Virus record (IMG/VR): IMGVR_UViG_3300032087_005691
Span: 1 to 37,766 of that record
Source: a virus
Direction: 5' to 3' (one strand)
DNA: 37,766 bases
Part shown: piece by piece, positions 9,801 through 34,886 of the stretch
Numbering within the stretch: the first letter of the stretch is position 1
Layout of the letters: each line of letters opens with the position of its first letter
Notes under the pieces: model-generated
The model's input: the letters and a program-made list of their open reading frames with translations, nothing else
Databases searched by the model: none
What the model was told of the DNA's origin: nothing
Program-made: the position numbers and the translations under genes

Positions 9801-12800
9801 TTTATTCTGTGTCCAAATCTTTGTCCTCCATCTGCATCAGGAGATTGTATTGAGACTTGCTGTGTCCATGTGTCATAGGTTGATCCGTCAGCACCAATGT
9901 TCCAGTCATACATATGCACTATACCTGTGTCATTATCATAACCAGGTGCAGATACAAAAAGCAATTTTGGAGTTGTGCTTCTGCCCGATGAGTCGCTAGG
10001 TTCGGCCACAGCAGTTGACCAACCAAAGTTGGCATTTTCAAGATTACTGGATCCGTCATTTGGACCTTTTATTGTTGAAAGTTCTGTGTAATTGAAAACA
10101 CTTGGATCCCACACGTAAGTTTTGATTAAACCTGCATCAATGAATCTTGTACTACCATCTGCTCCAATGGCATTGGTGTAAGGTGCGCCTGCCACTACAA
10201 AATTTCCATCTGAACTGATTGATAAACTTTCTCCAAGTCTCGAAGAAGTGTCATCATTGTCAGTCATGGTCAAACTGTTTTGTATTGTAAATGCTGTGCC
10301 TGCGTCGGAACTTCTTCTAAAGAAGAAATGGATTGTACCTTGACCTTGACTTGGTGCTGAAACAACCAATGTTCTGCCATCCTGTCTACCAACTATTCTG
10401 TAGCCAAAATCTTGGTTGTTGGTTGAATCTGGAGATTGTAAAATTGTTGTGGTGTAAGGGTCGTCTTTTTCATAAATTTTCCAATCACCTCCAACATTGT
10501 CAACAAACACTCTGTCACCATTGACATTATTAATTGAATCTTTGAATTGATAATCGTTGTAACTTAGAGCATCATTGACATTGTTCATTGACGCTAATCT
10601 TACACTGATAAATTTATAAACATCGCCGTAGGTGTTAAAAGTTGATTCATCTTCTAAAACGCTTATTGCAGTGCCCAACCTACTAGCATTTAAAAAATTT
10701 ATTAGAACTTGTTTGCTGGTAGGAACTTCTTGAATTTCATACACTCCATTGAATTCTCCGAACTGTGAATTCCTTATGCCAATATAATCACCTTTTGCAA
10801 AATTATGACTGAGATTGGTCTCTATCAATATTTGTGTGTCATTGTTGAACGATTGAATAGATCTAACAGTGTTGTTTGCTGAAGTTACTCTCTGTACGTC
10901 CCAATCAGCATTGGCTTTTTTAGCAATCCAAACAAGGTCATTGTTGCTAATGTTATTCATGTCTAGATTTTCTAGTTGTGTAATATCAAAAGCAGTGTGT
11001 TGAACGTCTTGCAATCTTGGCCATCCTGCATGTTTTATTACCACAGGGGTGTCTCGGTCAAAACCTTCCTGGGTGTAATCATATTGTGCAAAAGTTGTTG
11101 ATGCTGTGTACTCCAAAGGTTTTGAATACAGTTGTTCTGCTGTGGCTGTGGCTGATCTTGTGTAGGCCTGTGTTTGACCACTGTCCAAAAGTTCAATAGA
11201 CTGAACATTATTTGTAAATGTGCTGTCTGGCATTTTGATTTGCACTGATTTTAAGCCATCACAGTTTCCAAACTCTCCAGCCCTTACTGCCCATTCGGGG
11301 AAGGTATCTATTGTTAAACTTTCATCGTTGAACTGTGCTTTTAATAATCGATCTATGGCTGTCTTAGTTCCTTTATCTCTGATAAAACCTTGATAAAATT
11401 TGTACTGTGAAATATCATTTACAAAAAGATTTTCCAGATAAGATCTGCTTTGATAACCGATCAAGTGTTGAGCAAGACTTTGCTGTGATTCATCAAAGTT
11501 ATTTGTTTCTAGATTGTAAAAATCATTAAATTGACTTATCTTATAATCAAAATTTGGTATTAAGGATGGTCTTGGTTTGCTGTCTTTTTTCTGCCATTGT
11601 GCAAAATCAAACGTTGCACCACTGTTGTGATTCTTTTTAGCAACAAAAAATTTGGCATCATACTCTACTGAATCACCAATTTCATAATTGGTGTTTGCTG
11701 ACCATAGTGAAACCTTGGCCTCATCAAAAATAAATCCAGGTGAATAATAATCGCCATTCCAGTTGCCTGTTTTCCAACCTACTAATTTTAATCTTTGTTG
11801 ACGGAATCCTGTTGCTAATTCTAATATTACATCATTAAACACTGTGGTGTTGTCAAACAATAATACATGCTCCTTCTGCACAGAATTCATTGTGGCATTA
11901 AATATTCCAACTTCACTGTTTTTAATTTCTATGTTGAAAGTTGATCCGATTCTTTTAGTTGAAATGTCTTTTTTAGAAATTATTCTTCCGCCAGCATCTA
12001 GCACAGTGTAATCACCACGCATGTTGGCTAGTCTACTAATAATACTGTTATTTGTGGTAAGATTGAAACCATCTGCGCCAGCACTTAAAGTTATTGCTGA
12101 ACCAGCGGCCCATCCTTGTGTTGTCCAATATAAAAATTCTTTAGCAGATGTTTCCCAATTCAATGTTTCCTTGATTTCATTTGAAAAATTATCAAAACTA
12201 AATCCTTGTGATTCCAAATATTTTCCATATCCTACTAAAAAATCCACAACTTTTTGAACAGAATCAAAAACTGTTCCATATGTTACAGTTTTTACACTTT
12301 CGGTCCAGTTGTTGTATATTAAAGCAGAAGTGTTACCCACTGTTATTTTTGTGGAATTGCCATTTCGCATTGGCTCTAAAACTTTGAAATAAGGTCTTAG
12401 AGAATTGTACCCTATTACTTTGTATCCGCCTTGTAATGTTGATCCATCTGTAGTTGTATTTGTGTTTAGTTCAACTAACACACCTGAATAATCAAAACTG
12501 TTTACAGGATTTGATGTTCTAAATAAAATTTTGTAGTTTTCATCCGGAACAAATTGTGAGCCTGCTGATGATGCAGGACTTGTTGAATCTGTTAAAACTT
12601 TTAAATTTGCCTTATCACTGAAACCTCCAAGTTTGTATGCTAACTGGACATTTAAGTTTTTTAATTTATCGTAGTAAAAAGTTGCAGGATCTAAATTATT
12701 TTTAATAAGATAGTTTACTACCCACGGCTGATAGCCTGCTGTCAAATATCTTGTCACAACGCCTGTATCAGAATTTGTTACAGTTTCTAAATGATATTTT

Positions 12801-15800
12801 GCACTAGATAATTGTTGCCTTACTTCTGTGTCACTGTCAATTAAATTATTAGAAACATTGGTTGTCAGTCTTGAATTATCAAAAAATAGTCCAAAAAATT
12901 TGGCAGGTTTGGTTAAAGCCAACATTTTTATTGCTGAAAAAGGATAAGATGATGATCTTCTCCAGGCAGTTTCAGAAGGTGATTGATCACCAAAACTCCA
13001 GACTCTGTTCATTGTCCTTGTGGTGTTTCCAGTGACTAATCCAATTGCAATTGGACTTTTTAGGTTGCCTGAATCATCAACTGGTAGATAGTTTTTTAAA
13101 CCTGATCTAATATATCTGGTGTTTGTTGAACTTGTAGTTCTGTCATACCCAGCCGCTAGATCGTCCCATAACACTGAGTTTCCTGCTGTGTAAGGTGCAG
13201 GGCCATAGTTGTCTTCCCATGTGGTCGGTTTTTCTGAGTATCCTAACATTTCCCATGGATGTGTATGGGGTCTGTCAGTGTCATAAAATAATTTAAATAT
13301 ACCTCTCCAATATCCTGGTAAAAGATTTCCGTTGACTGCATCACGTGTAAGGTTGTAATTCCATGTAAATGCATCTGAAGCATTATAGGTTGTGTTGTTT
13401 TGCCAGTCCACTCCGTTCTTACCTGCCCATGCATAAAAATCCAAGGACAGCACAGAATCAACTTCTTGAATTGTGTAGTCTGTGGTTTTAAAACCAGAAG
13501 GAACAACGTCTGCAGTTTTTAACAGAGAAGAATCGTATGTAGTTTTACAGTTGTTATAAATTCTTTTTTCTAATTCCAACAGCAGGTCATCTCGATAGTC
13601 ACCATATGCAATAGTTCTTGATCCGTCATGACCAACTATCACTGTTTTGCTTGTTCTGTATGTGTTGTCTGTGACAGATTCAGGTTTGAACTTTGGATAT
13701 AGGCCTAATTTTGTAGGAGTTGGCGGAATAAAACTTCCGGTTGTGTCGCTATAATCTTTTATTTTTATAATATCACCTTCAGCAATTGCTGTTTTAATGT
13801 TTATGCTGTCATCAGTTGTACTAAAAGTATAGTCTGTGTCTACTAAAAGTTGAGTGTCATTTAAATAAACATACACTGCTCTATTGCTGACAGTGGTCAT
13901 TGAATGTTGAGAATCAATGGCATAATCCACTTCCGAAGAATCCTGTACAGTGTATGTTCTAGTTGATACATTGGCACCATAACCGATCATGTCTTCATAA
14001 TAGAAAGCAAAACTGGATGTTTTGTCTTTGGTTATTGTTTCTATCAATTCATCAACATAGTCTGCCACATTGCCTTCAAAACTTTTTCCTGTGCTGATAG
14101 ATAAAAAGTTTTCTTTGAATTTTTGATATTCTAAATTTGCATAGTCTATTGCTTTTATTGCATTGGCATTTTGATCTATCAAATTAAAAATACCTGAAGG
14201 TAGTGGTGCCGAGTGTTGTACAATTGTGCCACCTTTTGTTCTTACATCAGGTAAATCACGTAAATTTGTCGCACCAGGAATCTTACCTGTTATATCTGTA
14301 TTTTTTTCGTGTATGTCATGCACATGATTTAAAACTTCTCCAAAAGTAAATTCGTCTTCTTGTGCATTCAAAGGATTAATTGATAAATTTTCTGGAACTT
14401 CATATAGACCAATGCCATCAACTTTGGTTGCTGACGAATACGTTTGAATTTTTACGAGGTCGCCAACTTTAAGTTCATCAACAAAACTAACATATTTGTT
14501 AGTTGTTCCATTTTGTAAAGTGTAATCAGTGGTAAGGTCCTGTCTTACATGATTAACATCAACACTAACTTCTAGATCTGTAAGAGAAGCACTATTTTTA
14601 TATACGTCTATAGGAAATAGTTGTTTTTCATCTACGGTGACTATAAAAGTTCTAATAACTCTTTGTTTGCTTTCAGCAGTTCTTTGTACCCATGAACTTT
14701 TTGAATTGTGTGTTGTTCTGCTTGTGGTATAATGTAAGTGTCCTGAAGCATATTGTTTGCTTATAAAATCATCTCCACTTTTGTATGTAAATGTGCCCGA
14801 TGACAAATCACTTTCAAAAACAATATCACCAACATTGTTTAATGTTTTGTATTTCACTTTAATACCTAAAACAGTATCAGTCACTGCTGTGGTTGAAGTT
14901 TTAAAAGCAAAAACTTTTGCACCTGTAAACGAACTGTTTGGATACACTGTGGTGTTAGCAAAACTGTTATGAGAATTGTCAAACATATCAAACAATGGTT
15001 GTTGATTTACTGCTGTTTTTGTTTGTCCAGTTTGCCATGTTTTTGTATCTTCTTCGTAAAAATAAGTTTTACCTTGATTACTTGTGCCTAGTTCTACAAA
15101 AACATTCTCACCGTCTGCTGGGTCTGTGTCTGTTGTTGGTGTCAAAGCAATAACTTTGGCCGCTGTGCTGTCTCCCACATCAACAAAATTTACAGTAAAG
15201 ATTTTATTTTTTACTAAACTGTCTGTGTCTGCTGTAAACAATACTCGCATGCCATTTTGTACTGATATTCCATCAATAATATAGCCTGTTTGATTTACAA
15301 TATTACTAAAAGCATCAGTTGTCACTGTGTCAACTAGTGCCACTGACGTTTTGGCCTGAACTCCATGATTGTACAAAGCCAGTCCTGAATCAAATTCAAT
15401 GATAGGTCTTTTGGCTCTGTCTTCTTCTAAAAGATCAGCAGTATAACCATTAGCGGTTGCTGTGGCTTCAATTACAGATTTATGAAACCACCTATTATAT
15501 CTAGACCAAGCATTTTGATCTAATGAATCTCTTTTAATTGTGATGTAATCTTTTGTTTCAGGTCTGTAAAAAGCAATTGCGTAAGGACGTGCATCATAGG
15601 CAACATCATCATAAGTTTCTGATGTTTCGGTAGAATAACTTTCCGGAGTAATAAGGTCAGATGTGCTTGTGAATGTAATGGCTTCTCCAACACCTTCCAC
15701 ATAAAATTCTTTGGCTGAGTACGTGGCTGTATCTGTTACATTAGAACCAAACTTAATTTTCATTCCATTTGATAGATCCACTCCCGACGATGTAGTGTAA

Positions 15801-16723
15801 TTTTTTGCACCAAGAATATCTTCAGACACATTTATATTTGTTGAACTGTCAACTGTTTGCACATTGATAACTCCATGCATGGCAGAATGATTTCCGCATT
15901 GATAATAAAGCACATCTGGAGCGTTTGTTGGCACAATAAACTCAACTGTGCCACTGTCTGTGCCTGCATTTGTAACTCCTGATGTGTACAACACAGATGT
16001 TGACCCGTCTACTGCTACTCCTGTCTTGAATGGTTCTGTCATTATGTAAAAAGGATGCCCTGCGGCATTGACTATGAATTTGTAAGTGTTGCCTCTGTAA
16101 AGTGTTAGCGTTGGATTGTCAACTCCTGACCTAGTGCTGAAATTGTATGCACCTGCCGCGTTGTTTACCACATCTATTTCTGTGACAGCACCTGTACCAA
16201 CAGCACTTATTGTGATTGGATTAGGACCATCTGGTAACCAATAGTATTCTCTGTAATTGACCAATTTGTCAAAATCTATAGCAGGATTCCATGCATAAAC
16301 TTTTTCCTTGTTTAATCTATCATGATTATCTACTAGTCCACCAAAATATTTTATTTGATTTATGTAATCGTCGTATGTGCCTGTAAACTTAACTTGATCT
16401 TCAGGATTAACACTAGATGTGTCTCTGTCTGTGTAGGTTACAGCAGGTTCTAATTGATAGTTTTTTCTATCTGTGCTTGTGGCAGTTAGATATTTGTCTT
16501 TGTTTGTGTTTCTTGTGTAGGCATATTCATGCCCGATAAAACCATCTAGCCTTTCTAATGATCCAGGTTGGATCAATTGGTCAACTGTGCTTGATAAAAA
16601 TCTTTCGTTGCTGTCTGTTCTATAAAAACTAGGTAAATGTGCTATAGATCTTCGTATAACCACACCGTTTTTGTCTTTGTAGGTTACATTATTTGTTTGT
16701 GAATTTACTGGTTTATCTGCCAT
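3827..16723 (-). CDS. Giant 4298-aa modular virion protein (adhesin/fibre-like)
   Basis: An uninterrupted 12.9-kb gene, one third of the window. The N-terminus (residues 1-170) has a conserved-looking segment with SLERLDGFIGHEYAY, DDYINQIKYFGGLVDNHDRL and REYYWLPDGPNPITI. A cupredoxin-like domain follows at ~195-290 (His223, Cys276, His279, Met282). Small beta modules of the form DYTxxxxxxxIxxxxAxxxGDxIxIK occur at several places. Seven FG-GAP-like repeats lie at ~2095-2525. From ~3525 to ~4270 there are repeats built on GDGSTxxF...P...vxVDGvxQ. The end is QAKFIAGEPTNAPE. No membrane segment or signal peptide was noticed. An AGGA Shine-Dalgarno in the last codons of gp6 lies 10 nt upstream of the ATG. 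Repeated beta modules plus a propeller suggest an extended surface appendage that binds host structures. The position between gp6 and fibre genes agrees, but the function is inferred. Split annotation is unlikely because the frame is open throughout. Confidence 0.85.
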   Translation of the reverse strand: MADKPVNSQTNNVTYKDKNGVVIRRSIAHLPSFYRTDSNERFLSSTVDQLIQPGSLERLDGFIGHEYAYTRNTNKDKYLTATSTDRKNYQLEPAVTYTDRDTSSVNPEDQVKFTGTYDDYINQIKYFGGLVDNHDRLNKEKVYAWNPAIDFDKLVNYREYYWLPDGPNPITISAVGTGAVTEIDVVNNAAGAYNFSTRSGVDNPTLTLYRGNTYKFIVNAAGHPFYIMTEPFKTGVAVDGSTSVLYTSGVTNAGTDSGTVEFIVPTNAPDVLYYQCGNHSAMHGVINVQTVDSSTNINVSEDILGAKNYTTSSGVDLSNGMKIKFGSNVTDTATYSAKEFYVEGVGEAITFTSTSDLITPESYSTETSETYDDVAYDARPYAIAFYRPETKDYITIKRDSLDQNAWSRYNRWFHKSVIEATATANGYTADLLEEDRAKRPIIEFDSGLALYNHGVQAKTSVALVDTVTTDAFSNIVNQTGYIIDGISVQNGMRVLFTADTDSLVKNKIFTVNFVDVGDSTAAKVIALTPTTDTDPADGENVFVELGTSNQGKTYFYEEDTKTWQTGQTKTAVNQQPLFDMFDNSHNSFANTTVYPNSSFTGAKVFAFKTSTTAVTDTVLGIKVKYKTLNNVGDIVFESDLSSGTFTYKSGDDFISKQYASGHLHYTTSRTTHNSKSSWVQRTAESKQRVIRTFIVTVDEKQLFPIDVYKNSASLTDLEVSVDVNHVRQDLTTDYTLQNGTTNKYVSFVDELKVGDLVKIQTYSSATKVDGIGLYEVPENLSINPLNAQEDEFTFGEVLNHVHDIHEKNTDITGKIPGATNLRDLPDVRTKGGTIVQHSAPLPSGIFNLIDQNANAIKAIDYANLEYQKFKENFLSISTGKSFEGNVADYVDELIETITKDKTSSFAFYYEDMIGYGANVSTRTYTVQDSSEVDYAIDSQHSMTTVSNRAVYVYLNDTQLLVDTDYTFSTTDDSINIKTAIAEGDIIKIKDYSDTTGSFIPPTPTKLGLYPKFKPESVTDNTYRTSKTVIVGHDGSRTIAYGDYRDDLLLELEKRIYNNCKTTYDSSLLKTADVVPSGFKTTDYTIQEVDSVLSLDFYAWAGKNGVDWQNNTTYNASDAFTWNYNLTRDAVNGNLLPGYWRGIFKLFYDTDRPHTHPWEMLGYSEKPTTWEDNYGPAPYTAGNSVLWDDLAAGYDRTTSSTNTRYIRSGLKNYLPVDDSGNLKSPIAIGLVTGNTTRTMNRVWSFGDQSPSETAWRRSSSYPFSAIKMLALTKPAKFFGLFFDNSRLTTNVSNNLIDSDTEVRQQLSSAKYHLETVTNSDTGVVTRYLTAGYQPWVVNYLIKNNLDPATFYYDKLKNLNVQLAYKLGGFSDKANLKVLTDSTSPASSAGSQFVPDENYKILFRTSNPVNSFDYSGVLVELNTNTTTDGSTLQGGYKVIGYNSLRPYFKVLEPMRNGNSTKITVGNTSALIYNNWTESVKTVTYGTVFDSVQKVVDFLVGYGKYLESQGFSFDNFSNEIKETLNWETSAKEFLYWTTQGWAAGSAITLSAGADGFNLTTNNSIISRLANMRGDYTVLDAGGRIISKKDISTKRIGSTFNIEIKNSEVGIFNATMNSVQKEHVLLFDNTTVFNDVILELATGFRQQRLKLVGWKTGNWNGDYYSPGFIFDEAKVSLWSANTNYEIGDSVEYDAKFFVAKKNHNSGATFDFAQWQKKDSKPRPSLIPNFDYKISQFNDFYNLETNNFDESQQSLAQHLIGYQSRSYLENLFVNDISQYKFYQGFIRDKGTKTAIDRLLKAQFNDESLTIDTFPEWAVRAGEFGNCDGLKSVQIKMPDSTFTNNVQSIELLDSGQTQAYTRSATATAEQLYSKPLEYTASTTFAQYDYTQEGFDRDTPVVIKHAGWPRLQDVQHTAFDITQLENLDMNNISNNDLVWIAKKANADWDVQRVTSANNTVRSIQSFNNDTQILIETNLSHNFAKGDYIGIRNSQFGEFNGVYEIQEVPTSKQVLINFLNASRLGTAISVLEDESTFNTYGDVYKFISVRLASMNNVNDALSYNDYQFKDSINNVNGDRVFVDNVGGDWKIYEKDDPYTTTILQSPDSTNNQDFGYRIVGRQDGRTLVVSAPSQGQGTIHFFFRRSSDAGTAFTIQNSLTMTDNDDTSSRLGESLSISSDGNFVVAGAPYTNAIGADGSTRFIDAGLIKTYVWDPSVFNYTELSTIKGPNDGSSNLENANFGWSTAVAEPSDSSGRSTTPKLLFVSAPGYDNDTGIVHMYDWNIGADGSTYDTWTQQVSIQSPDADGGQRFGHRIKVNDNGDILAVASVAPGSAGKVEIFTRSSLTNDDSTQYVWTHRQTLRGATSDGSTLNTSFGDDIAMSKDGSRLFVSAPGYDKTNQADAGAVYYYLFNADGSTNTYTLQQTVEAPDLQTNMRFGTAIECNESGTRLSIGAEKKDNSREMKFDSGATTFDLQDTTITDENIGSGGAYTATMYDTQFVIDQRLVTTNVSANDDFGRGMFINDRGVYVGAPEDDSSSGVSNDGTVTNFELNTIGSYAWNALVTEDALIDNRKIKSAFIFNSATNQVIDYLDYYDPIKGRILGIADRELNFKSEWDPAVYSVGEGAVHVDENVAWGQEHIGQVWWDLSSARWTWYEQGTQEFKTKHWGELFPGSTIDVYEWVESTQLPADWSNLADTTQGISQSISGQPKYADNTVYTVKQKYDSASNSFVNYYYYWVKNSVFLPDAGKSVVTRKNTTAYISNIIANPYGSGLKYFTVSDKNKILTFNVKDSLFNSNVVLNVDYSDNVEDAEDHKVWKLFSEGDPDDRPTTRLENKWWDSLIGADSSGNQVPDIDLPVNRRYGTDLRPRQSWYVNRFNALKEIVDYANSVMLKKQLANTISYTNLNKQEPLPTAASGLYDGTVDTYAELTYIDTRDLSGTVNYLVKADEENSNGFWAIYQWDGTVWSRTRLQTYKTSAYYELADWYETGGSMDHSSNTVIDAQVTFEYQLDTLDLAVGKHVKVTSADTGGWKLFMKTTTGWENVGTENGTIQLKKSLYDYTIDNTGYAGNDTFDDNFFDQEPTIETRNVLTALRDDIFIGDLKVEYNNIFFIGLRKVLEEQTYVDWLFKTSFLNIKNNFRELTQRKTYTVGADSYVEEYIKEVKPFHTKLREYKVGYNKTETQDGLFTDFDNPAFYDSSISAIRNLDKDSVADATRLTEYPYKIWNDSYKKSVKTITLTKGGSGYSSAPTVLFIGGAVENTGPFQILGRSNSGSTSGDYGYYYPLFTSEQNANIYDQQQGGSGRAFIVTFDEHAGKTFYMPASTTNEAVSTRTFDFKLYQEPDVTHATATAVVSGGTVTKINLLTSGSGYTATPKILLTGGASDGSTPTDTATAYANLGNDLVRDIDVTLKFDRIDQNATVFEWAKNTAYSYGALIRYNNELYRATKTFTSTTKFDENIGDLQKLKGDETFLTAASRTLGMYTPEAGMAGNDLTQLMTGIDYGGVMVTGLLFNEDQGWDRSPWYDAPWDNFGSSKVKTFYGDGSTVLYTFDTAPLATEVYTVYYDGVRQTADVFRGDGTTTAFTLSTAPGDGVKVELILFDDDKVLTPTDDRTLDSLISGGLFSSAVGVSPGDIIQDGDAFVTPETSFAPEENVPGQIFDTLDIKVYTSPESGVPFIVDKTYRGDSSTTTFDIGQQPGTQAGVMVTIDGVRQNSLASDSTVNYTVDTAAKTVTFSTAPTSGSVVNIKSFAISGNNYVLLNSFTGDGSTKSFTTGARDTYQLDSALPQLYVTVDGQVSTAYSTSESNKAVTVTFDTAPASGQAIQIAGFNQDPATRAFAEIRSENINYDGSTVTYALDYPPGAIGPFAGLTLLEVNGNLLRGPDNTYYSSDGSTYTYAVLSTLSDGSTVDPAKTITSASQVEVYKNGVKQILNTDYTVDIAAQKVDFVTVPEASDVIAITTLVDNHYRMIGNEIILDLTQIAADGITLSSGDNIVATTFNNALGMKQRREVLEGRPNGELYLNAEPLNSDYVFVTLNSTNTLTQNADYTLTGNKLTIHGITLTSSDRIDVMYFAVESATNATGFRIFKDMLNRTFYKRISSTNTTTLSVALEPGDQDMIVSDGTVLTTPNAGNNQPGVVFVDKERIEYFVKTGNTLSQLRRGTLGTGIKAHASGASVVDAGGQQTVPYADTISTKTYTGDGSTVRFATTYAPTRGEDLDIFIGGQRLSFKHELDDSTLTRGYSVDGSTANVTLTNAPATGTQVKIVQKRGNTWYTAGASTAADGKGLQKSNTSQAKFIAGEPTNAPE
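3960..6145 (-). repeat. C-terminal GDGST...VDG beta-repeats of the giant virion protein
   Basis: The last ~750 residues hold repeated units whose core is GDGST or similar followed by xxF, a Pro-containing turn and a strand with DGVRQ, IDGVRQ, VDGQ or IGGQ. Clear copies begin at FYGDGSTVLYTF, RGDGTTTAFTL, YRGDSSTTTFDI, FTGDGSTKSFTT and YTGDGSTVRFAT. Several are followed by a DYTV...V.I module. Such tandem sandwich domains are common in phage fibre shafts. Copy boundaries are approximate because they were read by eye. Confidence 0.65.
9150..10445 (-). repeat. Seven FG-GAP-like repeats (beta-propeller) inside the giant virion protein
   Basis: At residues ~2095-2525 seven units start with an FG/LG pair and continue into a strand ending SAP, GAP or similar. 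They are FGYRIVGRQDGRTLVVSAP, LGESLSISSDGNFVVAGAP, FGWSTAVAEPS..LLFVSAP, FGHRIKVNDNGDILAVAS, FGDDIAMSKDGSRLFVSAP, FGTAIECNESGTRLSIGA and FGRGMFINDRGVYVGAP. FG-GAP repeats form seven-bladed propellers in integrin alpha chains, and seven units are visible here. Blades are spaced roughly 55-70 residues apart. A receptor- or glycan-binding head is the natural inference. Confidence 0.75.
15854..16141 (-). other. Cupredoxin-like (type-1 copper site) domain inside the giant virion protein
   Basis: Residues ~195-290 of the giant protein read like a plastocyanin-type beta-sandwich: LTLYRGNTYKFIVNAAGHPF, then a hydrophobic strand EFIVPTNAP and the loop LYYQCGNHSAMHG. In type-1 copper proteins the ligands are an N-terminal His and a C-terminal Cys-x(n)-His-x(n)-Met loop. 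Here His223, Cys276, His279 and Met282 sit in that order with the C-x2-H-x2-M spacing. Copper binding is inferred from motif spacing. The fold could also be used purely structurally. Confidence 0.6.
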
Positions 16724-28375: not shown

Positions 28376-30145
28376 TTGTTAACAGTAAAAACACTCACAG
28401 TAAAAAACTTTCTAAGCGTGGGCAATCAAGCACAGGCAATTAATTTTGAAGGCAAGAATTTAGTATTGGTATTGGGTGAAAACATGGACCTTGGTGGCGA
28501 CGACGCAGGTGCTAGAAATGGTACAGGTAAAACCACAATAATAAATGCTATCAGTTATGCACTATTTGGTGATGCACTTACTCAGATCAGAAAAGACAAT
28601 CTTGTTAACAAAACCAACAACAAAGACATGTTGGTTTCAATCACTTTTGAAAAAAACAATACCACATACACCATTGAAAGAGGCAGAAAACCAGCCAAAC
28701 TTAAATTTTATATTAATGATGTTGAACAAGAAAGCAACGAAGCACAGGGAGAAAACAGAGAGACACAACACGAAATTAACAAATTGATCGGAATGAGTCA
28801 TGCCATGTTCAAGAATATCATTGCTTTGAACACATACACTCAACCGTTTCTGGCCACTAAACAGGCAGAACAAAGAGAAATAATTGAACAACTTTTGGGA
28901 ATAACAATACTTTCAGAAAAGGCAGATCTACTTAAAGATCAAATGCGTGGCACCAAAGAAGAATTAATGAGTGAAAAATACAAACTGGACAGTATTAAAC
29001 AAAGCAATGAAAAAATTAGTGAATCAATAAAAACTATCAGACTACGAAGCAGTGCATGGCAGTCACAGAAAGAGCAGGATATTGAAAAGTTCAAAGACGC
29101 AATCTCTGAACTGGACAAAGTGGATATCACAGCAGAACTTGAAGCACACAAACAATTACAAAAACACAACGAGCAGTCCAAAACACTGGCCAGTCTGCAA
29201 AAAGAAAAAGCATATCATGAAAACAGTTTGACCAAAGCAGATTCCAATGTGGAAAAAACCAAAAAAGATATGGAATATGCACAAGACGCAAAATGTCCCA
29301 CATGTGAACAAGAACTACACGATGACAAACACGAACATCTAGTGGATAAATTAAAAACAATCTTAACTGAAAATGAAGATTACAGTAACAAACTAAAAAG
29401 TGATCTTGCAAAAATACAACACCAGATTGATGACATAGGTGATTTGGGTGTTATACCAGACACTTATTACGATTCAATAGACGAAGCATACAATCACAAA
29501 GGCACACTAAAAGATCTCAAAAGACAACTGGAGCAAACTGAATCAAAAGAAGATCCTTACGCAGAACAAATACATGAACTAACAAAAAGTGCTATTCAAA
29601 AAATAGATTACACAAAGGCCAACGAACTTGAAGACTTGTACAGACATCAAGAATTTTTATACAAGTTGCTCACAGCCAAAGACAGTTTTTTAAGAACAAA
29701 AATCATAGAACAAAATTTAACATATTTGAATCAGCGATTGGCCAACTATTTGGCAAAAGTAAAACTGCCACACACTGTGGTGTTTAGACCGGATCTGTCT
29801 GTTTGCATTGAAGAATTGGGTAGAGAACTGGACTTTGATAATTTAAGTAGAGGTGAAAGAAACAGATTAATTTTGAGTTTGAGTTGGGCATTCAGAGATG
29901 TGTGGGAAGGATTATATCAACAGATCAACTTGCTGTTTATTGATGAATTAATAGACGCAGGTATGGACACATCAGGTGTTGAAAGTTCCATGGCTGTACT
30001 AAAAGACATGGCCAGAACACAAAACAAAAATATTTTCCTAATTTCACACAAAGACGAACTGGTAAGCAGAGTTAATTCTGTATTAAAAGTGATAAAAGAA
30101 AATGGATTTACCAACTATGCCAACGATGTGGAAATTGTTATTTAA
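28376..30145 (+). CDS. 46: Recombination ATPase subunit gp46 (Rad50/SbcC-like)
   Basis: A 589-aa SMC-type ATPase (T4 gp46 is 560 aa). Features: Walker A around residues 45-54 (GARNGTGKTT), a Q-loop region near 150-160 (LNTYTQPFLA), coiled-coil arms ~165-300 and ~315-440, and a zinc hook Cys307-Pro-Thr-Cys310. Near the C-terminus come the ABC signature LSRGERNR at 490-497, Walker B LLFIDE at 519-524 and the H-loop His at 558. The start codon is TTG at 28376, preceded by GAGGA about 7 nt upstream. There is no ATG before the P-loop strand, so TTG is required. An insertion (MDLGGDDA) precedes the P-loop glycines. It forms the nuclease complex with gp47. Its stop overlaps the convergent minus-strand gene by 8 nt. 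Confidence 0.95.
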   Translation: MLTVKTLTVKNFLSVGNQAQAINFEGKNLVLVLGENMDLGGDDAGARNGTGKTTIINAISYALFGDALTQIRKDNLVNKTNNKDMLVSITFEKNNTTYTIERGRKPAKLKFYINDVEQESNEAQGENRETQHEINKLIGMSHAMFKNIIALNTYTQPFLATKQAEQREIIEQLLGITILSEKADLLKDQMRGTKEELMSEKYKLDSIKQSNEKISESIKTIRLRSSAWQSQKEQDIEKFKDAISELDKVDITAELEAHKQLQKHNEQSKTLASLQKEKAYHENSLTKADSNVEKTKKDMEYAQDAKCPTCEQELHDDKHEHLVDKLKTILTENEDYSNKLKSDLAKIQHQIDDIGDLGVIPDTYYDSIDEAYNHKGTLKDLKRQLEQTESKEDPYAEQIHELTKSAIQKIDYTKANELEDLYRHQEFLYKLLTAKDSFLRTKIIEQNLTYLNQRLANYLAKVKLPHTVVFRPDLSVCIEELGRELDFDNLSRGERNRLILSLSWAFRDVWEGLYQQINLLFIDELIDAGMDTSGVESSMAVLKDMARTQNKNIFLISHKDELVSRVNSVLKVIKENGFTNYANDVEIVI

Positions 30146-30929
30146 TAACTAACTGCTCGGACACACTTACACACTCTCCGTCTTTTTTTGCAACATTAAA
30201 GAAATTAGTTTCTTGTAAATTGTTATCCTTACAAATCTTTTTATATTTTTCACCATACGTATTCCATCCGTAATCTCTTTCAATGTTGTCCATAACAAAA
30301 CTTCCACATGATATTAATGCATCATTGTATTTTTGCTGAGCGTTAAACATTGTTATAGAGTCCATTGTTCTTTGTTTGCTATACCTAAGTCCTATTCTGT
30401 TCCAAGATCCTATATATTTTGATAAACTCATTCCAAAACTTTTTATATTGGGATGACCAAAATCTAAATTTATGTCTTTGGATACAGTAATCCATGCACA
30501 ATCAATATGCACATCTATGTTTTTATTTTTACATTCTTCTAATATTTCGTCCCATTTTGGTCGGGGTCCATAATAATAATTTGGTATTGATACAATTAAA
30601 GGTACCTCTGGTTCAAGACTACCAATTTCCGTTGGACGTTTACCCATCACCGCATAATAAGCATAATCTCTTGGCAATACTTGGATATTCCATTTATTTT
30701 TTAGTGCTAAACTTTCAATAAATTGTGTGCATCCAATTATAATATCTTTATTAGGAAACTGATCAACATTATGCAATTGATTTATTTTTGTTGACATAAA
30801 CCAATTATCTGCTTTTTCTATAAAATCTTCTTTAGAAACAATTTTTTGCGGTTCAGAAAAAAACCTCTTTTTAATACTAATAATTTTTTCATCCTGAATA
30901 GATTTTAATATCTTGCTAAATTTTTGCAT
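30138..30929 (-). CDS. Short PLP-dependent aminotransferase-like protein (fold type I)
   Basis: A 263-aa protein. Type I aminotransferases are usually 350-450 aa. Motifs fit the large domain: SIPNYYYGP at 114-122 (the region of the NPTG loop), a strand-end Asp in VHIDCAW (Asp143, which would contact the PLP ring nitrogen), and SLSKYIG (Lys171, Schiff-base position) followed by NRIGLRY with Arg178/Arg182. The usual C-terminal small domain is very short and the N-terminal arm is reduced. It may still be catalytic as a dimer, or may have become a binding protein. Substrate unknown. It lies last in the AT-rich accessory block, overlapping the 2OG-oxygenase gene by 14 nt. No Shine-Dalgarno was found, so coupling is likely. 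Its 3' end overlaps gp46 convergently. Confidence 0.6.
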   Translation of the reverse strand: MQKFSKILKSIQDEKIISIKKRFFSEPQKIVSKEDFIEKADNWFMSTKINQLHNVDQFPNKDIIIGCTQFIESLALKNKWNIQVLPRDYAYYAVMGKRPTEIGSLEPEVPLIVSIPNYYYGPRPKWDEILEECKNKNIDVHIDCAWITVSKDINLDFGHPNIKSFGMSLSKYIGSWNRIGLRYSKQRTMDSITMFNAQQKYNDALISCGSFVMDNIERDYGWNTYGEKYKKICKDNNLQETNFFNVAKKDGECVSVSEQLVIK

Positions 30930-31497
30930 ATCTTATGTAAATACTTTTTCTAATTTTGTTACCAATATGTTCATGTTCGCAACCGTGCCAACTGTTGGTG
31001 TTGTTTAAAAGACAATAGCCTGAATTACTTTTGTATTTAAAAACATGAAATGGTTTTTTGGAATTTTGTGAAGAATATAAAGCGGTTCCCGGAATATTAT
31101 CATCACTATCTAGATATATTTGAATTGCTAATGATATTCTGCTATCATCTCTATGTGCTTCTAATTTATATCCGGACGAGTCAAACCAGATGTCTGATGT
31201 TTTTGCTTGTAATTTAATTTTGTATTTGTCTTCGAACACTTTTTTAATTTTATTTGACCTAAAAATTAGATTCAATTCTTTAGAAATTTGTTCTTTATAA
31301 TCAACTCTTAAACGTTGTTTATGTTTTTGTTGTTCAACTTTTTTAACACTACAATTAGTAGGATTTATTTTTTGTAAGCGTTTATAAAGATTTTTAGGTA
31401 AGATATTTTGAAAAATTTGGTAAAAAGCACCATGTCTTTCAATTACCATACTTTTTTCTATTGACTGAGCCAGAAAATTAATGTTATCATTTAACAT
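30916..31497 (-). CDS. 2-oxoglutarate/Fe(II)-dependent oxygenase
   Basis: A 193-aa protein with the double-stranded beta-helix signature: His115-Arg-Asp117 (EAHRDDSR), a strand AIQIYLDSDDNIPGTALY, then distal His171 in NTNSWHGCEHE and Arg183 in KIRKSIYIRY, which would bind 2OG. All three iron ligands and the Arg are present, so activity is expected. Phage relatives hydroxylate proteins, nucleic acids or small molecules. The substrate is not evident here. The N-terminal ~90 residues are Lys/Gln-rich. It starts 39 nt from the divergent histone-H1-like gene and overlaps the aminotransferase-like gene. The sequence is clearly more AT-rich than the structural genes, suggesting separate origin. Confidence 0.8.
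   Translation of the reverse strand: MLNDNINFLAQSIEKSMVIERHGAFYQIFQNILPKNLYKRLQKINPTNCSVKKVEQQKHKQRLRVDYKEQISKELNLIFRSNKIKKVFEDKYKIKLQAKTSDIWFDSSGYKLEAHRDDSRISLAIQIYLDSDDNIPGTALYSSQNSKKPFHVFKYKSNSGYCLLNNTNSWHGCEHEHIGNKIRKSIYIRYAKI
31461..31490 (+). promoter_or_regulatory. Sigma70-type promoter for the histone-H1-like gene
   Basis: TTGACT at 31461-31466 and TATCAT at 31485-31490 are separated by 18 nt, each one base from consensus. The predicted start is near 31497, giving a ~40-nt leader with AAAGGA before the ATG at 31537. The site lies inside the first codons of the divergent oxygenase gene. A host-type promoter implies early expression, unlike the TATAAATA late genes. Confidence 0.55.
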
Positions 31498-31536
31498 ATA
31501 TTAATTAATTATCGTACGACAACAAAGGAATAAAAT

Positions 31537-31725
31537 ATGTCACAAACACATGAATCGATAATGACAGCAATTCAAACTTACTCAGAAGAAAATTCTAAGT
31601 TTGTGGAAAAAGGTGTAAAGGCATCTGCGACTAGAGCCAGAAAAGCCCTTGCTGAATTATCTAAATTAATAAAAGCAAGAAGAAAAGAAATTCAAGAATC
31701 TAAAAACGCACAAAAAGTTGCGTAA
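31537..31725 (+). CDS. Small histone-H1/Hc1-like basic protein
   Basis: A 62-aa, Lys/Arg-rich, Ala-rich helical peptide. The central segment VEKGVKASATRARKALAELS then KLIKARRKEIQESK closely resembles short bacterial histone-H1-like proteins of the Hc1 type, in which a ...K..gtRARKa...l.kl.k..R helix binds DNA or compacts the nucleoid. The Shine-Dalgarno AAAGGA lies 7 nt before the ATG. The gene stands alone on the plus strand between minus-strand genes, with its own sigma70-like promoter upstream and a rho-independent terminator 28 nt after the stop. This suggests a strongly expressed early product, perhaps acting on host or phage DNA. A role is inferred only from the family resemblance. Confidence 0.6.
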   Translation: MSQTHESIMTAIQTYSEENSKFVEKGVKASATRARKALAELSKLIKARRKEIQESKNAQKVA

Positions 31726-31733
31726 TCGATAAT

Positions 31734-31749
31734 TTGAATTGCAATTCAA
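31734..31749. repeat. Perfect 16-bp palindrome TTGAATTGCAATTCAA
   Basis: A perfect inverted repeat with no spacer lies between the stop of the H1-like gene and its terminator. As RNA it could form a weak AT hairpin. As DNA it could be a dimeric operator or a protein-binding site. No second copy was noticed in the window. Confidence 0.5.
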
Positions 31750-31752
31750 TTT

Positions 31753-31781
31753 AACCCTCGGCGTACAGTCGAGGGTTTTTT
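31753..31781 (+). terminator. Rho-independent terminator after the H1-like gene
   Basis: AACCCTCG at 31753-31760 pairs with CGAGGGTT at 31770-31777 across a 9-nt loop, and a run of T (31776-31781, then ATTT) follows. On the minus strand the stem is preceded by A residues and not followed by a T run, so it should act mainly on plus-strand transcripts. Confidence 0.85.
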
Positions 31782-31791
31782 ATTTGTAGAG

Positions 31792-32634
31792 TTACTTAAA
31801 ATAATCTTCTATTGTGCCTTCTCTGTATAAGTCCTGTGTAAAGCAATGCACACCATTGTCCCAAAACTTTGAATGGCGGAACTTACAAATTACAGGATTA
31901 ATTTTGTTTTTATCAAAGAAGTTTAATAAAGTATTAGTAGGTTCTGTTATAATACAATTTTCTTCGTCTACTGAAAGTACATTTACTGAATAATTGCTTT
32001 CTGTGCTATCACCGCCCCATGCGTGATTAATTGACATTTCTTTTTCCTTATTTTCAAAATAGCAAATATCCCATCCTGGGTAAATTTCGTCTAAATTTAC
32101 TAAATCTTTTGTTGCTAATATTACTCCCGGTTTTAGTATGCTGTATACTCCATCCATGTGCCATCCGTGTCTTGTGACAGTAACTCTATAACCGTTATCT
32201 TTAAGCCATGTTAATATTGTGTCCTCTGCTTCTTGATTGACGTTTTTGCTTATATCCCAGTGAATATGATTTCCACATCTTATCATGTTGGCACTGGATA
32301 TATCACTGTCCAAAAACCATTTTATATTTTTTTTATCAATCTCATTTAATATTTTACTGTAACCGTTGATAAGTTTTCCTACAAATAAATTATTTCCGAT
32401 TACAACAAAATAGTCTCTTGGAGATATAGGAGGACGTTTTTTTGCATTTGTTGTTGCAGGTCGGTAGCATGTTACATCAAATGACTCCAATGTAGTTACT
32501 AGGTTATTAAGGTCCTCTGCTGTATCATGCATTATATCTTTAAGATCATCTGATACGTTCTCAGGAGGATGTACACTACCAACTATGCAGTGTTTCAAAG
32601 GATGAAAAGTTGTATAACCTTTTATAGGTATCAT
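31792..32634 (-). CDS. Glycine-amidinotransferase-like enzyme (AGAT/StrB superfamily)
   Basis: A 280-aa member of the guanidino-group-modifying superfamily. AGAT transfers an amidino group from arginine to glycine or another amine through a Cys thiouronium intermediate. Matches to AGAT run in order: PRDYFVVIGNNLFVG at 72-86, ANMIRCGNHIHWD at 114-127, GWHMDGVYSILKPGVILA at 157-174 (His159, Asp161), SVNVLSVDEENCIITEP at 216-232, and GVHCFTQDLYREGTIEDYF (nucleophile Cys264). At the position of the catalytic Asp of AGAT (FDAADFIRAG) this protein has Asn115 by my alignment. It is shorter than AGAT (~420 aa). Its ATG overlaps the GIY-YIG gene's TGA (ATGA), so translation is coupled. The region is AT-rich. 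The acceptor is unknown; a deiminase or hydrolase activity is an alternative. Confidence 0.8.
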   Translation of the reverse strand: MIPIKGYTTFHPLKHCIVGSVHPPENVSDDLKDIMHDTAEDLNNLVTTLESFDVTCYRPATTNAKKRPPISPRDYFVVIGNNLFVGKLINGYSKILNEIDKKNIKWFLDSDISSANMIRCGNHIHWDISKNVNQEAEDTILTWLKDNGYRVTVTRHGWHMDGVYSILKPGVILATKDLVNLDEIYPGWDICYFENKEKEMSINHAWGGDSTESNYSVNVLSVDEENCIITEPTNTLLNFFDKNKINPVICKFRHSKFWDNGVHCFTQDLYREGTIEDYFK

Positions 32635-33056
32635 TTGTTAAGTATGCCTTTACCGTGTACTCTTACCCTTATATGACCATTGTAATATTGTTCGCTTAAC
32701 AGCACACCTTTTGAAAATTGTTCGTGTGCTTCCCAATAATTACACTCTGCTTTACTTTTACAGTACCTCAAAATAATTCTTTTGAATTTGTCTTTGCCAA
32801 AACGTTCGATGTCGGCGTGTAAGGCATCACTGCTACCATAGTAGTCTTTCCAGTCGCTGTCCACAGCGCCGCGAATTCTTTTGCGTACTTTTTTTCCGTT
32901 TTTCTGCGTATGCATTTTGTAGCGTAAGGTCTTGAATTTGGCCAGTTTCTTTCCAATATATCTGCGATTGTTCTCTAGGCAAATGATCTCATACACAAAA
33001 CCCACACAGTCAGATGGTAATTCTAAGACAGGTTCGTTTTTGTAGTGCCAATGCAT
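32631..33056 (-). CDS. GIY-YIG-like endonuclease
   Basis: A 141-aa protein. The GIY motif appears as CVGFVYEIICLENN (Gly19-Phe-Val-Tyr22) and the YIG motif as RRYIGKK (Tyr33-Ile-Gly35). The basic insert GKKVRKRIRG follows, then SDWKDYYGSSDALHADIERF, and Glu109 in CNYWEAHEQF could be the metal-binding Glu. A C-terminal NGHIRVRVHGKG completes a pattern seen in stand-alone phage nucleases of this type. Such proteins act as homing endonucleases or DNA-degrading nucleases. Its stop codon is fused to the start of the amidinotransferase gene. Upstream, only 23 bp separate it from the divergent oxygenase at 33080. Base composition is near that of the core genome, unlike the genes downstream of it. 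Confidence 0.65.
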   Translation of the reverse strand: MHWHYKNEPVLELPSDCVGFVYEIICLENNRRYIGKKLAKFKTLRYKMHTQKNGKKVRKRIRGAVDSDWKDYYGSSDALHADIERFGKDKFKRIILRYCKSKAECNYWEAHEQFSKGVLLSEQYYNGHIRVRVHGKGILNK

Positions 33057-33079
33057 GTCATTATTTAAATACAGGTACT

Positions 33080-33664
33080 ATGGCAGTACACAAACTTGGC
33101 ACCATTGAAATTCCACAACGCCTTCGTGACGAAGTGTACAACACAGAACCCAACAGAGTCAAAAGCCAAAAAAACACCGGCACATTTTTTGTCAACAAAT
33201 ATGTGAAAGATCCAGTGGAACGTGAAAACCTCACCAAAAGGTACGATGACCACAACTGTTACAGCATTGCCTGGAGACACGACTGGTACAAAGACATTAT
33301 TCCACAGTCATTTTTGGATGAAAAAGGACTCAGCAGACCGTTTAATGCCATGGTGCGACTGCAACATCCAGGCAGTTTTTTTGCACCACACAAGGACATG
33401 TACAACGTGGTTGTGTATGGCCAAGACGGTGAACAGGCTCGAGACAGAGTCAAATACGAAAACATTGCCAGACTCTGGATACCCATGGAAGACGGTCGGT
33501 TTGGTGAAGCATTTTTCATTGAAGACACAGCACTGTACCAATGGAAAGCAGGCGAAGTGTACACATTTCCACCTGATGCACTGCACAGCAGTGCCAATGC
33601 AGGCATGAAAGACAGACACACTCTGCTGGTGTACTGTGAATGGTTACACAGCAGACCTTGGTAA
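33080..33664 (+). CDS. Second Fe(II)/2OG-type oxygenase (beta-hydroxylase-like)
   Basis: A 194-aa protein with His104-Lys-Asp106 (FFAPHKDMYNV), a strand ARLWIPMEDGRFGEAFFIED, then distal His169 in PPDALHSSANAG and Arg179 in KDRHTLLVY. This order fits the aspartyl/asparaginyl beta-hydroxylase-like branch of 2OG oxygenases, also found in T4-like marine phages. The substrate is unknown. An in-frame ATG at 33014 would lie inside the divergent nuclease gene. The ATG at 33080, behind CAGGT and a TTTAAATA stretch at 33065, is the better start. GC is about 47% in a sampled stretch, higher than the 30-32 kb accessory genes, so this oxygenase and the one at 30916 likely have separate origins. The structured RNA region begins about 50 nt after its stop. 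Confidence 0.7.
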   Translation: MAVHKLGTIEIPQRLRDEVYNTEPNRVKSQKNTGTFFVNKYVKDPVERENLTKRYDDHNCYSIAWRHDWYKDIIPQSFLDEKGLSRPFNAMVRLQHPGSFFAPHKDMYNVVVYGQDGEQARDRVKYENIARLWIPMEDGRFGEAFFIEDTALYQWKAGEVYTFPPDALHSSANAGMKDRHTLLVYCEWLHSRPW

Positions 33665-33679
33665 ACAGAATCAAAAAGA

Positions 33680-33710
33680 TTGCACCGTAGAAACTTCTGT
33701 GTTATATACT
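33680..33710 (+). promoter_or_regulatory. Possible sigma70-type promoter of the structured RNA
   Basis: A TATACT box at 33705-33710 (one mismatch to TATAAT) sits 19 nt downstream of a poor -35-like TTGCAC at 33680. A transcript would start near 33717, just before the base-paired region. The -35 is weak, so this is a tentative placement. Confidence 0.3.
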
Positions 33711-33716
33711 AGTGAT

Positions 33717-34085
33717 AGGCACACCACAATAGCACAAAAAACCAACAGGCACACATAGCATCGCAATCAGTGAGCAGGGAAATGCGGCTTAACAGCGACA
33801 GGTGAATCCCTTGATGTAAATGCAAAAATGAAGAGGCTCTGGGAAACAGATCCAACCTCAGGTAGGCATGAACGTATCGTACAAGGGTCATGTCTGCTCG
33901 CGTTGTAATGAATGAGCAAACGGGTACAGCACAACCGCCCGACTAAGGTAGCGATGTACGGTGACTGTGAACTCACCACAGGAGGTTCGGCTAGCAATAG
34001 CCGAATTGTGACTGCTCATCTACCACAGGAGACGCAAACGAAACGAGCACAGCGAAGTTTCAGATGTGCGTGAGCACATCTTTCC
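33717..34085 (+). ncRNA. Structured non-coding RNA of unknown class (about 370 nt)
   Basis: The 442-nt stretch 33665-34106 holds no convincing gene and is GC-rich (about 52% over 33841-34020, counted by hand). It can form many helices. AGATGTGC/GCACATCT (34062-34081) closes a GTGA tetraloop and TTCGGCTA/TAGCCGAA (33986-34005) a GCAA tetraloop, both perfect 8-bp stems with GNRA loops. GACA...CCCTTG (33797-33813) pairs with CAAGGG...TGTC (33882-33894), enclosing nested GAGG/CCTC and TCTG/CAGA stems (33833-33859). GGTGA/TCACC lies at 33960-33977. TGAGCAG (33771-33777) can pair with CTGCTCA (34012-34018), closing a ~250-nt domain. The RNA could be independent or a 5' leader of the gene at 34107, whose ATG is 25 nt after the last stem. 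Strand is inferred from flanking genes and the GNRA loops, which exist only on the plus strand. Confidence 0.65.
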
Positions 34086-34106
34086 ACACCCATAACTATT
34101 TGTACC

Positions 34107-34886
34107 ATGATACACATTTGGAATCACAGTTACGGCCGACAGGAACAACAGGATCTTGTGGTGTGTAGACCCTATGCAATTCCCGAAAGTTACGAAGAAG
34201 CCGAAATGATCGACAACGGATGGTTGGCGTTGGACACACCCATCTATCATGAAGGTCGACTGCAGGAGTGTTTTTACCAAAGCAGATCCACAAGAATAGC
34301 ACTGAGAAAATACCGTGCGCCAAAAAGCCGGGCACAGTGGCAAGGTCAAGACATACAGATGATGGAAATCCGGCCAGAACAACAAAACATTGAAATGACC
34401 GGACTGCGATCTGTGTATCAAAAATATTTAAAAAGAACCAAATTCCGAGATCTCTATGATCCTTTTGCCAATGTGCAGGATCGTGACGCATTCTTGATCT
34501 ACTATGTGGATGATGTCACCAACATCATTGGTTTTTCCAAAATCAAAAGATACTGGTTCCAGGAAGAACTGTTGAACTACAACAGCAGACGGGATCTGGC
34601 ACGACTACATCCTGATCAATGTTATGCTGTGGAAAGTGTTCTACATGCCAACACAGTGCCAATCTCCAAGGTCACAGTGGACATGGAGGCCACGTGGGCC
34701 AAGAAAAAAGGTGTCAATGAATTTTATCTGGGATCAGGCTACGAAACCGGCAGTATCTATAAAAGTCAGTTCAAAGGTTTTGAATGGTGGACAGGCACAG
34801 AATGGAGCACAAACAAAAAACAGTATGTGCAACTGTGTGAACGAGACAGCAGTCTAAAAAAGATTACTGATCTCGCCAATCTCTAA
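34107..34886 (+). CDS. GNAT-fold protein resembling aminoacyl-tRNA-protein transferases (ATE/Bpt-like)
   Basis: A 259-aa protein. The N-terminal half has PESYEEAEMIDNGWLAL, then YQSRSTRIALRKYRAP, like the ...YE.L.d.Gf...SRSqR..lkr... region of bacterial ATE/Bpt enzymes. The C-terminal half has FLIYYVDDVTNIIGFSKIKR, CYAVESVLHANTVPISKV, and KKKGVNEFYLGSGYETGSI followed by YKSQFKGFEWWTG. These correspond to the S-x-G-t...YLGY-i...M-YK-x-f-P part of that family. ATE/Bpt enzymes move an amino acid from charged tRNA to protein N-termini and mark them for degradation. The N-terminal cysteine cluster of ATE is not seen. A generic GNAT acetyltransferase is the alternative. It follows the structured RNA directly and its 3' end overlaps the convergent gene by 23 nt. 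Confidence 0.5.
   Translation: MIHIWNHSYGRQEQQDLVVCRPYAIPESYEEAEMIDNGWLALDTPIYHEGRLQECFYQSRSTRIALRKYRAPKSRAQWQGQDIQMMEIRPEQQNIEMTGLRSVYQKYLKRTKFRDLYDPFANVQDRDAFLIYYVDDVTNIIGFSKIKRYWFQEELLNYNSRRDLARLHPDQCYAVESVLHANTVPISKVTVDMEATWAKKKGVNEFYLGSGYETGSIYKSQFKGFEWWTGTEWSTNKKQYVQLCERDSSLKKITDLANL

Follow-up and report, generated by a model that had tools for sequence, protein, structure and literature searches.

A predicted structured noncoding RNA of about 370 nt with twin segments changing in concert in T4-like phages

Introduction

GOLLD (RF02032) is a large structured RNA of phages to which no function has been assigned, and ROOL and OLE are likewise large, ornate RNAs with pseudoknots. The ColE1 RNAII is a structured RNA of several hundred nucleotides which has its own promoter. 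The lambdoid N/nut sites and the iterons are short sites that are near-identical within a phage or replicon, differ between them and co-evolve with one binding protein. In the phage ICP1, an abundant noncoding transcript of ~800 nt, large and unexplained, was reported (PMC7567579).

The DNA analysed here, referred to as the window, is the whole 37,766-nt stretch of the IMG/VR virus record IMGVR_UViG_3300032087_005691. The comparison of sequences indicates that the window encodes a structured noncoding RNA of ~370 nt which represents an undescribed family and a stand-alone unit in T4-like phages. The pseudoknotted core of the RNA, its twin segments (called X) and the spread of the family past marine phages are additions to the initial annotation, in which a large folded RNA of unknown class had been proposed for a marine T4-like phage. 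That the RNA is structured and forms a new family is regarded as nearly certain.

Results

The locus and its neighbours

The gene-free stretch was located at positions 33665-34106; its length of 442 nt agreed with the initial annotation and no gene was found there. It lies between a 2OG-oxygenase-like gene (33014-33664, plus strand) and the gene of a 259-aa protein (34107-34886, plus strand). The GC content over 33841-34020, previously counted by hand as about 52%, was computed to be 51.7%. The claimed contrast with the surroundings held for the sequence further out (32–37%), whereas the flanking genes have 44–45% GC, so that "far lower nearby" was an overstatement.

The noncoding RNA is encoded by positions 33712-34085 of the plus strand (~370 nt), as judged from the conserved block in homologues and from covariation, its ends being set by a predicted promoter and a terminator-like hairpin. 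The predicted sigma70-type promoter (33680-33708, plus strand) consists of a -35 box TTGCAC, a 17-nt spacer and a -10 box TATATA, and would drive the transcription of the RNA. In the relatives, the -35 box is TTGACC and the spacing is unchanged.

The neighbouring genes were determined over 99 loci. The gp46 gene (SbcC-like) was upstream in 64 and a SegE GIY-YIG gene in 54 of them; an Hc1-type histone-like gene of 62 aa was present in 59, and the T4 baseplate hub gene was downstream in 69. The RNA is thus often placed at the junction of gp46 and the baseplate hub. The T4-like assignment of the window was confirmed by these flanking gp46, hub and endonuclease genes; the marine setting proved too narrow, since the distribution extends past marine phages and includes cultured jumbo phages. 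In many loci, the next gene is on the opposite strand. As the adjoining genes differ and often run in the opposite direction, the RNA is a stand-alone unit.

Several other observations were made on the surrounding genes. The gene at 33014-33664, of the Asp_Arg_Hydrox type (216 aa), is absent from the five nearest relatives, in which the promoter of the RNA lies directly next to the SegE gene; the difference corresponds to a recent insertion or loss. The PHROG 447 label of 32631-33056, NAD synthetase, is misleading, as Pfam assigned this gene to the SegE GIY-YIG endonucleases (E 7e-32). In each clade, a structure-specific nuclease is the neighbour upstream of the RNA, although the families differ: GIY-YIG in the marine phages, endonuclease VII in the RaK2-like phages, RusA in PA5oct and an annotated Holliday resolvase in Phosso. 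Between gp46 and the RNA, genes resembling small-molecule enzymes (aminotransferase, 2OG oxygenase and amidinotransferase by eye; no confident Pfam match) occupy 30138-32634. The 259-aa protein, which follows the RNA in about half of the loci, had no Pfam match; a similarity of its C-terminal part to aminoacyl-tRNA transferases (GNAT-like) was noted by eye. A possible late-promoter-like box precedes its gene in the window (34092-34100). The minus strand carries, at 3827-16723, one open frame of 4298 aa, an exceptional length among phage proteins.

Homologues of the RNA

The first relatives (n = 5) were recruited via the downstream protein, and their intergenic regions were 76–95% identical. 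One block was invariant among them even where the neighbouring protein was only 70% identical. Scans with exact patterns resulted in 34 and then at least 120 stretches. On reading, nearly all stretches from the two scans were homologues; L070, L072 and L139 (viral) and L154, L155 and L157 (bacterial) were rejected as chance pattern matches. The scan for a second core variant gave 85 further stretches, and GUUG was found upstream in 39 of the 41 non-redundant ones. Altogether, homologues are present in more than 200 IMG/VR contigs, and each of the long marine contigs (138–330 kb) carried a single copy of the RNA. No phage isolates were found by blastn with the marine sequences as queries.

The core common to the homologues is GUUG...GGUACAG[C/G]ACAACCGCC, and GUUG...GGUACAGCACAACCGCC is nearly invariant. 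The family features present are the GUUG...CAAC pseudoknot across a stem bearing GGUACAGNACAACCGCC and the twin X after CUC[AG] and AUCU[AG].

A conserved protein reading frame, which had been considered initially as evidence against an RNA, was not detected: no frame was open in all homologues, and the best one was open in 57 of 88.

Secondary structure and covariation

The fold of the window RNA as a single sequence was weak, with an MFE z-score of -1.6 and equally good energies in 6 of 100 shuffles. Since this energy is ordinary, the case for a structured RNA rests on comparison. An alignment of 47 diverse homologues was used. RNAalifold determined 57 pairs, 33 of them with double-sided changes, and a covariation analysis free of presets resulted in the same helices and, in addition, a pseudoknot joining 33956-33960 to the P5 loop. 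In the 67-pair structure that includes both pseudoknots, 97.2% of the cells were paired. The covariation which the initial annotation had proposed to look for was found, as compensatory double changes, at 42 of the 67 pairs, pseudoknots included. The structure score was 0.463 compared to 0.05–0.10 for slid structures (maximum 0.095), and was reached in 0 of 500 shuffles, a count that is not a probability because the sequences are related. A chance origin of the fold is excluded by the strong covariation in the 47 homologues together with the lack of a universally open frame.

All the structural elements lie on the plus strand. The 5' domain (33758-33817) is formed by a helix 33758-33761/33814-33817 and an inner helix 33776-33779/33808-33811 which encloses a small hairpin; 8 of its 10 pairs showed double-sided compensatory changes. 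Helix P4, GAGGC UCU..GAAA..AGA CCUC (33833-33859; 33833-33836/33856-33859 and 33840-33841/33853-33854), was paired in 100% of the cells with 5 of 6 pairs compensatory, and is kept in the Agrobacterium phage Atu_ph07. The hairpin P5 (33861-33898; 33861-33871/33888-33898, tip 33874-33875/33884-33885) was 97.7% paired with compensatory changes at 11 of 13 pairs. The loop of P5 (33878-33882) pairs with 33956-33960 in pseudoknot 1, where the corresponding values were 99.6% and 4 of 5 pairs.

The core (33900-33941) includes GCGUUG at 33900-33905, GGGUACAGCACAACCGCCC at 33922-33940 and the stem 33921-33924/33938-33941, and is invariant in the marine set. Pseudoknot 2, within the core, joins GUUG 33902-33905 with CAAC 33932-33935. 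It showed no variation in the marine set and covaries in jumbo phages, in which the pairs GUUGC/GCAAC, GUUGU/ACAAC, GUUAC/GUAAC and GUCAU/AUGAC replace one another. A candidate closing stem, GCGU 33900-33903 with ACGC 34032-34035, competes with this pseudoknot and, being nearly invariant, is without covariation support.

Both of the 8-bp stems with GNRA loops noticed initially are present: UUCGGCUA-GCAA-UAGCCGAA at 33986-34005 and AGAUGUGC-GUGA-GCACAUCU at 34062-34081. The GNRA character is kept only in the first loop (GAAA, GCAA, GUAA or GAGA); the loops of the second hairpin vary, and that hairpin is terminator-like. The first stem belongs to hairpin P12 (33984-34008), which is situated between the X copies and was 98.8% paired with 5 of 11 pairs compensatory. 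The hairpin GAAAC..GUUUC (34040-34061) was 97.4% paired with 3 of 5 pairs compensatory. In the terminator-like hairpin AGAUGUGC-GUGA-GCACAUCUUU (34062-34085), the stem was compensatory at 2 pairs.

Twin X segments

X is a segment of 6–8 nt occurring twice in each RNA, after CUCA and AUCUA, and it is near-identical within each RNA and very different between RNAs. In the window, copy 1 (ACCACAG, 33975-33981, plus strand) is located in a hairpin loop after CUC and the identical copy 2 (34022-34028, plus strand) after AUCU, a rule that holds across classes. In the marine RNAs, the stem of the hairpin bearing copy 1 varies compensatorily (GAAC/GUUC, GAUAC/GUAUC, GAC..GUC; read from the sequences). 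The two copies covary with the same letter: A-A 36 and G-G 11 at 33975/34022, C-C 38 and G-G 9 at 33976/34023, C-C 43 and T-T 4 at 33977/34024, and G-G 30, T-T 10 and C-G 5 at 33981/34028; thus, the first three positions had no discordance. The versions of X include ACCACAG, AGCACAU, ACUACAA, ACGUGAU, AGAUGAU, AGAUAGA, UGGUAAU, GGAAAA and RGAUGAW, among others. Within the class that has diverged further, copy 1 is followed by G and copy 2 by A.

Over 21 X types, the letters of the two copies agreed at 138 of 147 positions, the best of 200,000 permutations being 101; the windows for this comparison were picked and aligned by eye, and some types are related and not fully independent. The later-scanned core variant is therefore the stronger test, and in all of its 35 non-redundant RNAs that have the motif the X copies were identical, with six versions of X.

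No position inside the RNA consistently provided a full complement of X, and five long own contigs showed no enrichment of X under a permutation control. X as a phage-wide motif was rejected, as a 1.7-fold forward excess in redundant flanks disappeared in the long contigs with this control. The hub gene of the window contains an X-like 18-mer, which was attributed to chance because the relatives do not conserve it.

Relatives in cultured and jumbo phages

The model of the marine core (R1) matched the cultured Agrobacterium phage Atu_ph07 with 30.3 bits (E 1.1e-5 in 490 kb). The core and the twin X (CUCA-UGAAUG and AUCUA-UGAAUA) are present, and the RNA of Atu_ph07 is clearly a family member. 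Cultured phages with matching gene order, PA5oct, Phosso, Munch and XbC2, have gene-free gaps at this place. PA5oct gave a weak match to the model (14.1 bits, E 0.0012 in 1.3 kb) and is a candidate member; no model match was obtained in the gap of the Sinorhizobium phage Phosso.

The gap sequence of the RaK2-like phages occurs as 4–5 dispersed, unannotated copies per genome (Munch, L169; 121Q, L172; CBB, L173; GAP32, L174). In CBB, with a unit genome length of 355.9 kb (PMC5259590), the copies are at 32.4, 94.3, 174.5, 258.2 and 336.4 kb; those of 121Q are at 90.3, 192.8, 247.5 and 326.7 kb. The probability that five random points on CBB are all at least 51.9 kb apart is about 0.005, which is post hoc arithmetic on copies that are syntenic between relatives. 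The alignment of 34 RaK2-like copies gave a structure of 59 pairs, 37 of them compensatory, with 98% of the cells paired. Their twin X is YGUCA, and one paralogue per genome deviates in both copies (GUGUCA or CCGUCAG). Most copies are preceded by a TGAAAC- or GGGACA-like -35 box and a TATAAT -10 box. Similar boxes, TGAAACG...TATA, make up a divergent RpoD-like promoter that was described in CBB and GAP32, in a paper where no RNA is mentioned at these sites (PMC5259590). One copy in the Serratia phage BF reaches slightly into the annotated start of an ADP-ribosylglycohydrolase gene.

Against model R1, the best E value of the RaK2-like copies was 0.005, and six of seven weak matches were in jumbo copies and spanned the expected core; none of these copies was recovered when whole genomes were searched under stricter filter settings. 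Synteny, the core pseudoknot and the twin X make it probable that the RaK2-like copies are relatives of the marine RNA.

Search for known RNA classes

In Rfam 15, where tmRNA, RNase P, group I and II introns, ROOL, OLE, HEARO and riboswitches are covered, no family matched at the gathering score. The sole match at E ≤ 10, ClpQY_promoter, was rejected as chance (13.6 bits versus a cut-off of 42, on the other strand and outside the core). ARAGORN detected no tRNA or tmRNA fold in the RNA. The earlier failure to match the sequence to tmRNA, RNase P, introns or tRNA was thereby corroborated, and so was that for GOLLD, as the 416-position covariance model RF02032 did not match the RNA in any of 15 contigs. 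GOLLD was detected elsewhere in two of the contigs, in L117 (G011) at 60.1–60.5 kb with 191.7 bits, over the cut-off, compared to the RNA at 69.3 kb, and in L080 (G001) at 329.7–330.0 kb with 126 bits (E 9e-36), below the cut-off, compared to the RNA at 311.5 kb. Since these two contigs carry both at separate loci, the RNA is not GOLLD. The Rfam negatives, the homologous intergenic regions in viral contigs, the strong covariation with pseudoknots and the consistent predicted promoter with the 3' hairpin support a folded RNA of no recognised class. No description of it was found in the open-access literature, preprints being outside the scope of the search.

Discussion

With this RNA, the short list of large structured RNA families in phages grows by one. 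Its conserved place in the T4-like core genome suggests that it is probably important to those phages, and because cultured jumbo phages of E. coli, Salmonella and Cronobacter carry likely relatives, unannotated so far, laboratory tests of its function are already feasible. To our knowledge, twin segments changing in concert are a feature of no other RNA family, and they hint at a docking or guiding job.

Our tentatively preferred reading is bivalent docking: the RNA would bind a single phage-encoded partner that co-evolves with it. The RNA would be transcribed early or in the middle of infection from the sigma70-type promoter and would act in trans. The core could serve as a rigid scaffold presenting X twice, in the hairpin loop and in the linker, and both sites may be bound by one and the same partner, either a small RNA or a dimeric RNA-binding protein encoded by the phage, so that the RNA would be a bivalent decoy or an assembly platform. 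As the specificity of the partner drifts, both X copies would have to change together, which would produce the same-letter covariation. Covariation that is identical and not complementary argues that both copies answer to one partner, and the lack of X enrichment in the own contigs agrees better with a dedicated partner than with numerous targets. Against docking, a single protein partner would have to tolerate the paralogue with its own X in each genome of the putative jumbo relatives. The twin segments predict that altering one X should fail and altering both should switch the partner.

Pairing of X with nucleic acids was weighed against docking. Possible but doubtful is a twin-guide RNA, which would carry two copies of one programmable recognition sequence on a conserved double-pseudoknot scaffold, pair bivalently during infection with a single target RNA or with a DNA strand of its own locus, and have persisted for long among T4-like phages, marine as well as giant. 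As an antisense guide, X would base-pair with a single-copy target RNA of the phage or the host; the position of copy 1 in a hairpin loop and the free, guide-like drift of X agree with this. However, neither X nor its complement was enriched in the own contigs, a test which one single-copy target could escape, and we consider such a guide unlikely. Less likely still is that X pairs with the template DNA strand or a complementary copy from its own locus, one copy pairing with the complement of the other, in the manner of an R-loop or primer RNA such as ColE1 RNAII. This would account for the identical covariation, the paralogue-specific X, the absent internal complement and the 4–5 same-strand copies around the RaK2-like genomes. 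However, in both CBB and 121Q the GC skew goes with the coding strand and has no inflection at the dispersed copies, the long marine contigs have one copy only, and same-strand placement is expected where most genes share the strand.

A self-assembling structural RNA resembling the GOLLD and ROOL nanocages, in which X would make quaternary contacts, is also improbable. Its size, pseudoknots and near-invariant core, and the presence of GOLLD in two of the same contigs, are in line with this; contacts between identical RNAs should, however, covary complementarily, and X varies by the same letter and lacks a complement. Internal pairing of X and a cDNA copy of X were considered excluded or unlikely. 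The copying of X by a reverse transcriptase, with the twin copies permitting template jumping as in DRT2 or telomerase templates, was largely refuted: such templates do need identical direct repeats flanking a hairpin, but the RVT_1 domain, marking the cognate reverse transcriptase that retron and DRT RNAs require, was absent from 30 contigs and from 8 complete jumbo phage genomes of up to 490 kb.

Compared with the known systems, the RNA resembles GOLLD in being a large structured phage RNA without assigned function; it differs in being half as long, in having the twin X and in the lack of tRNAs near 60 loci as determined by ARAGORN. Similarly to ROOL and OLE, it is large and ornate with pseudoknots, but unlike them it has no Rfam match. 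The ICP1 transcript is likened to it by description as a large phage noncoding RNA, and no relation is claimed. With ColE1 RNAII it shares the length of several hundred nucleotides, the structure and an own, here predicted, promoter, but no origin signature was seen in the GC skew of CBB and 121Q. Unlike the lambdoid N/nut sites and iterons, the twin sites lie inside one conserved folded RNA, and their partner protein is putative.
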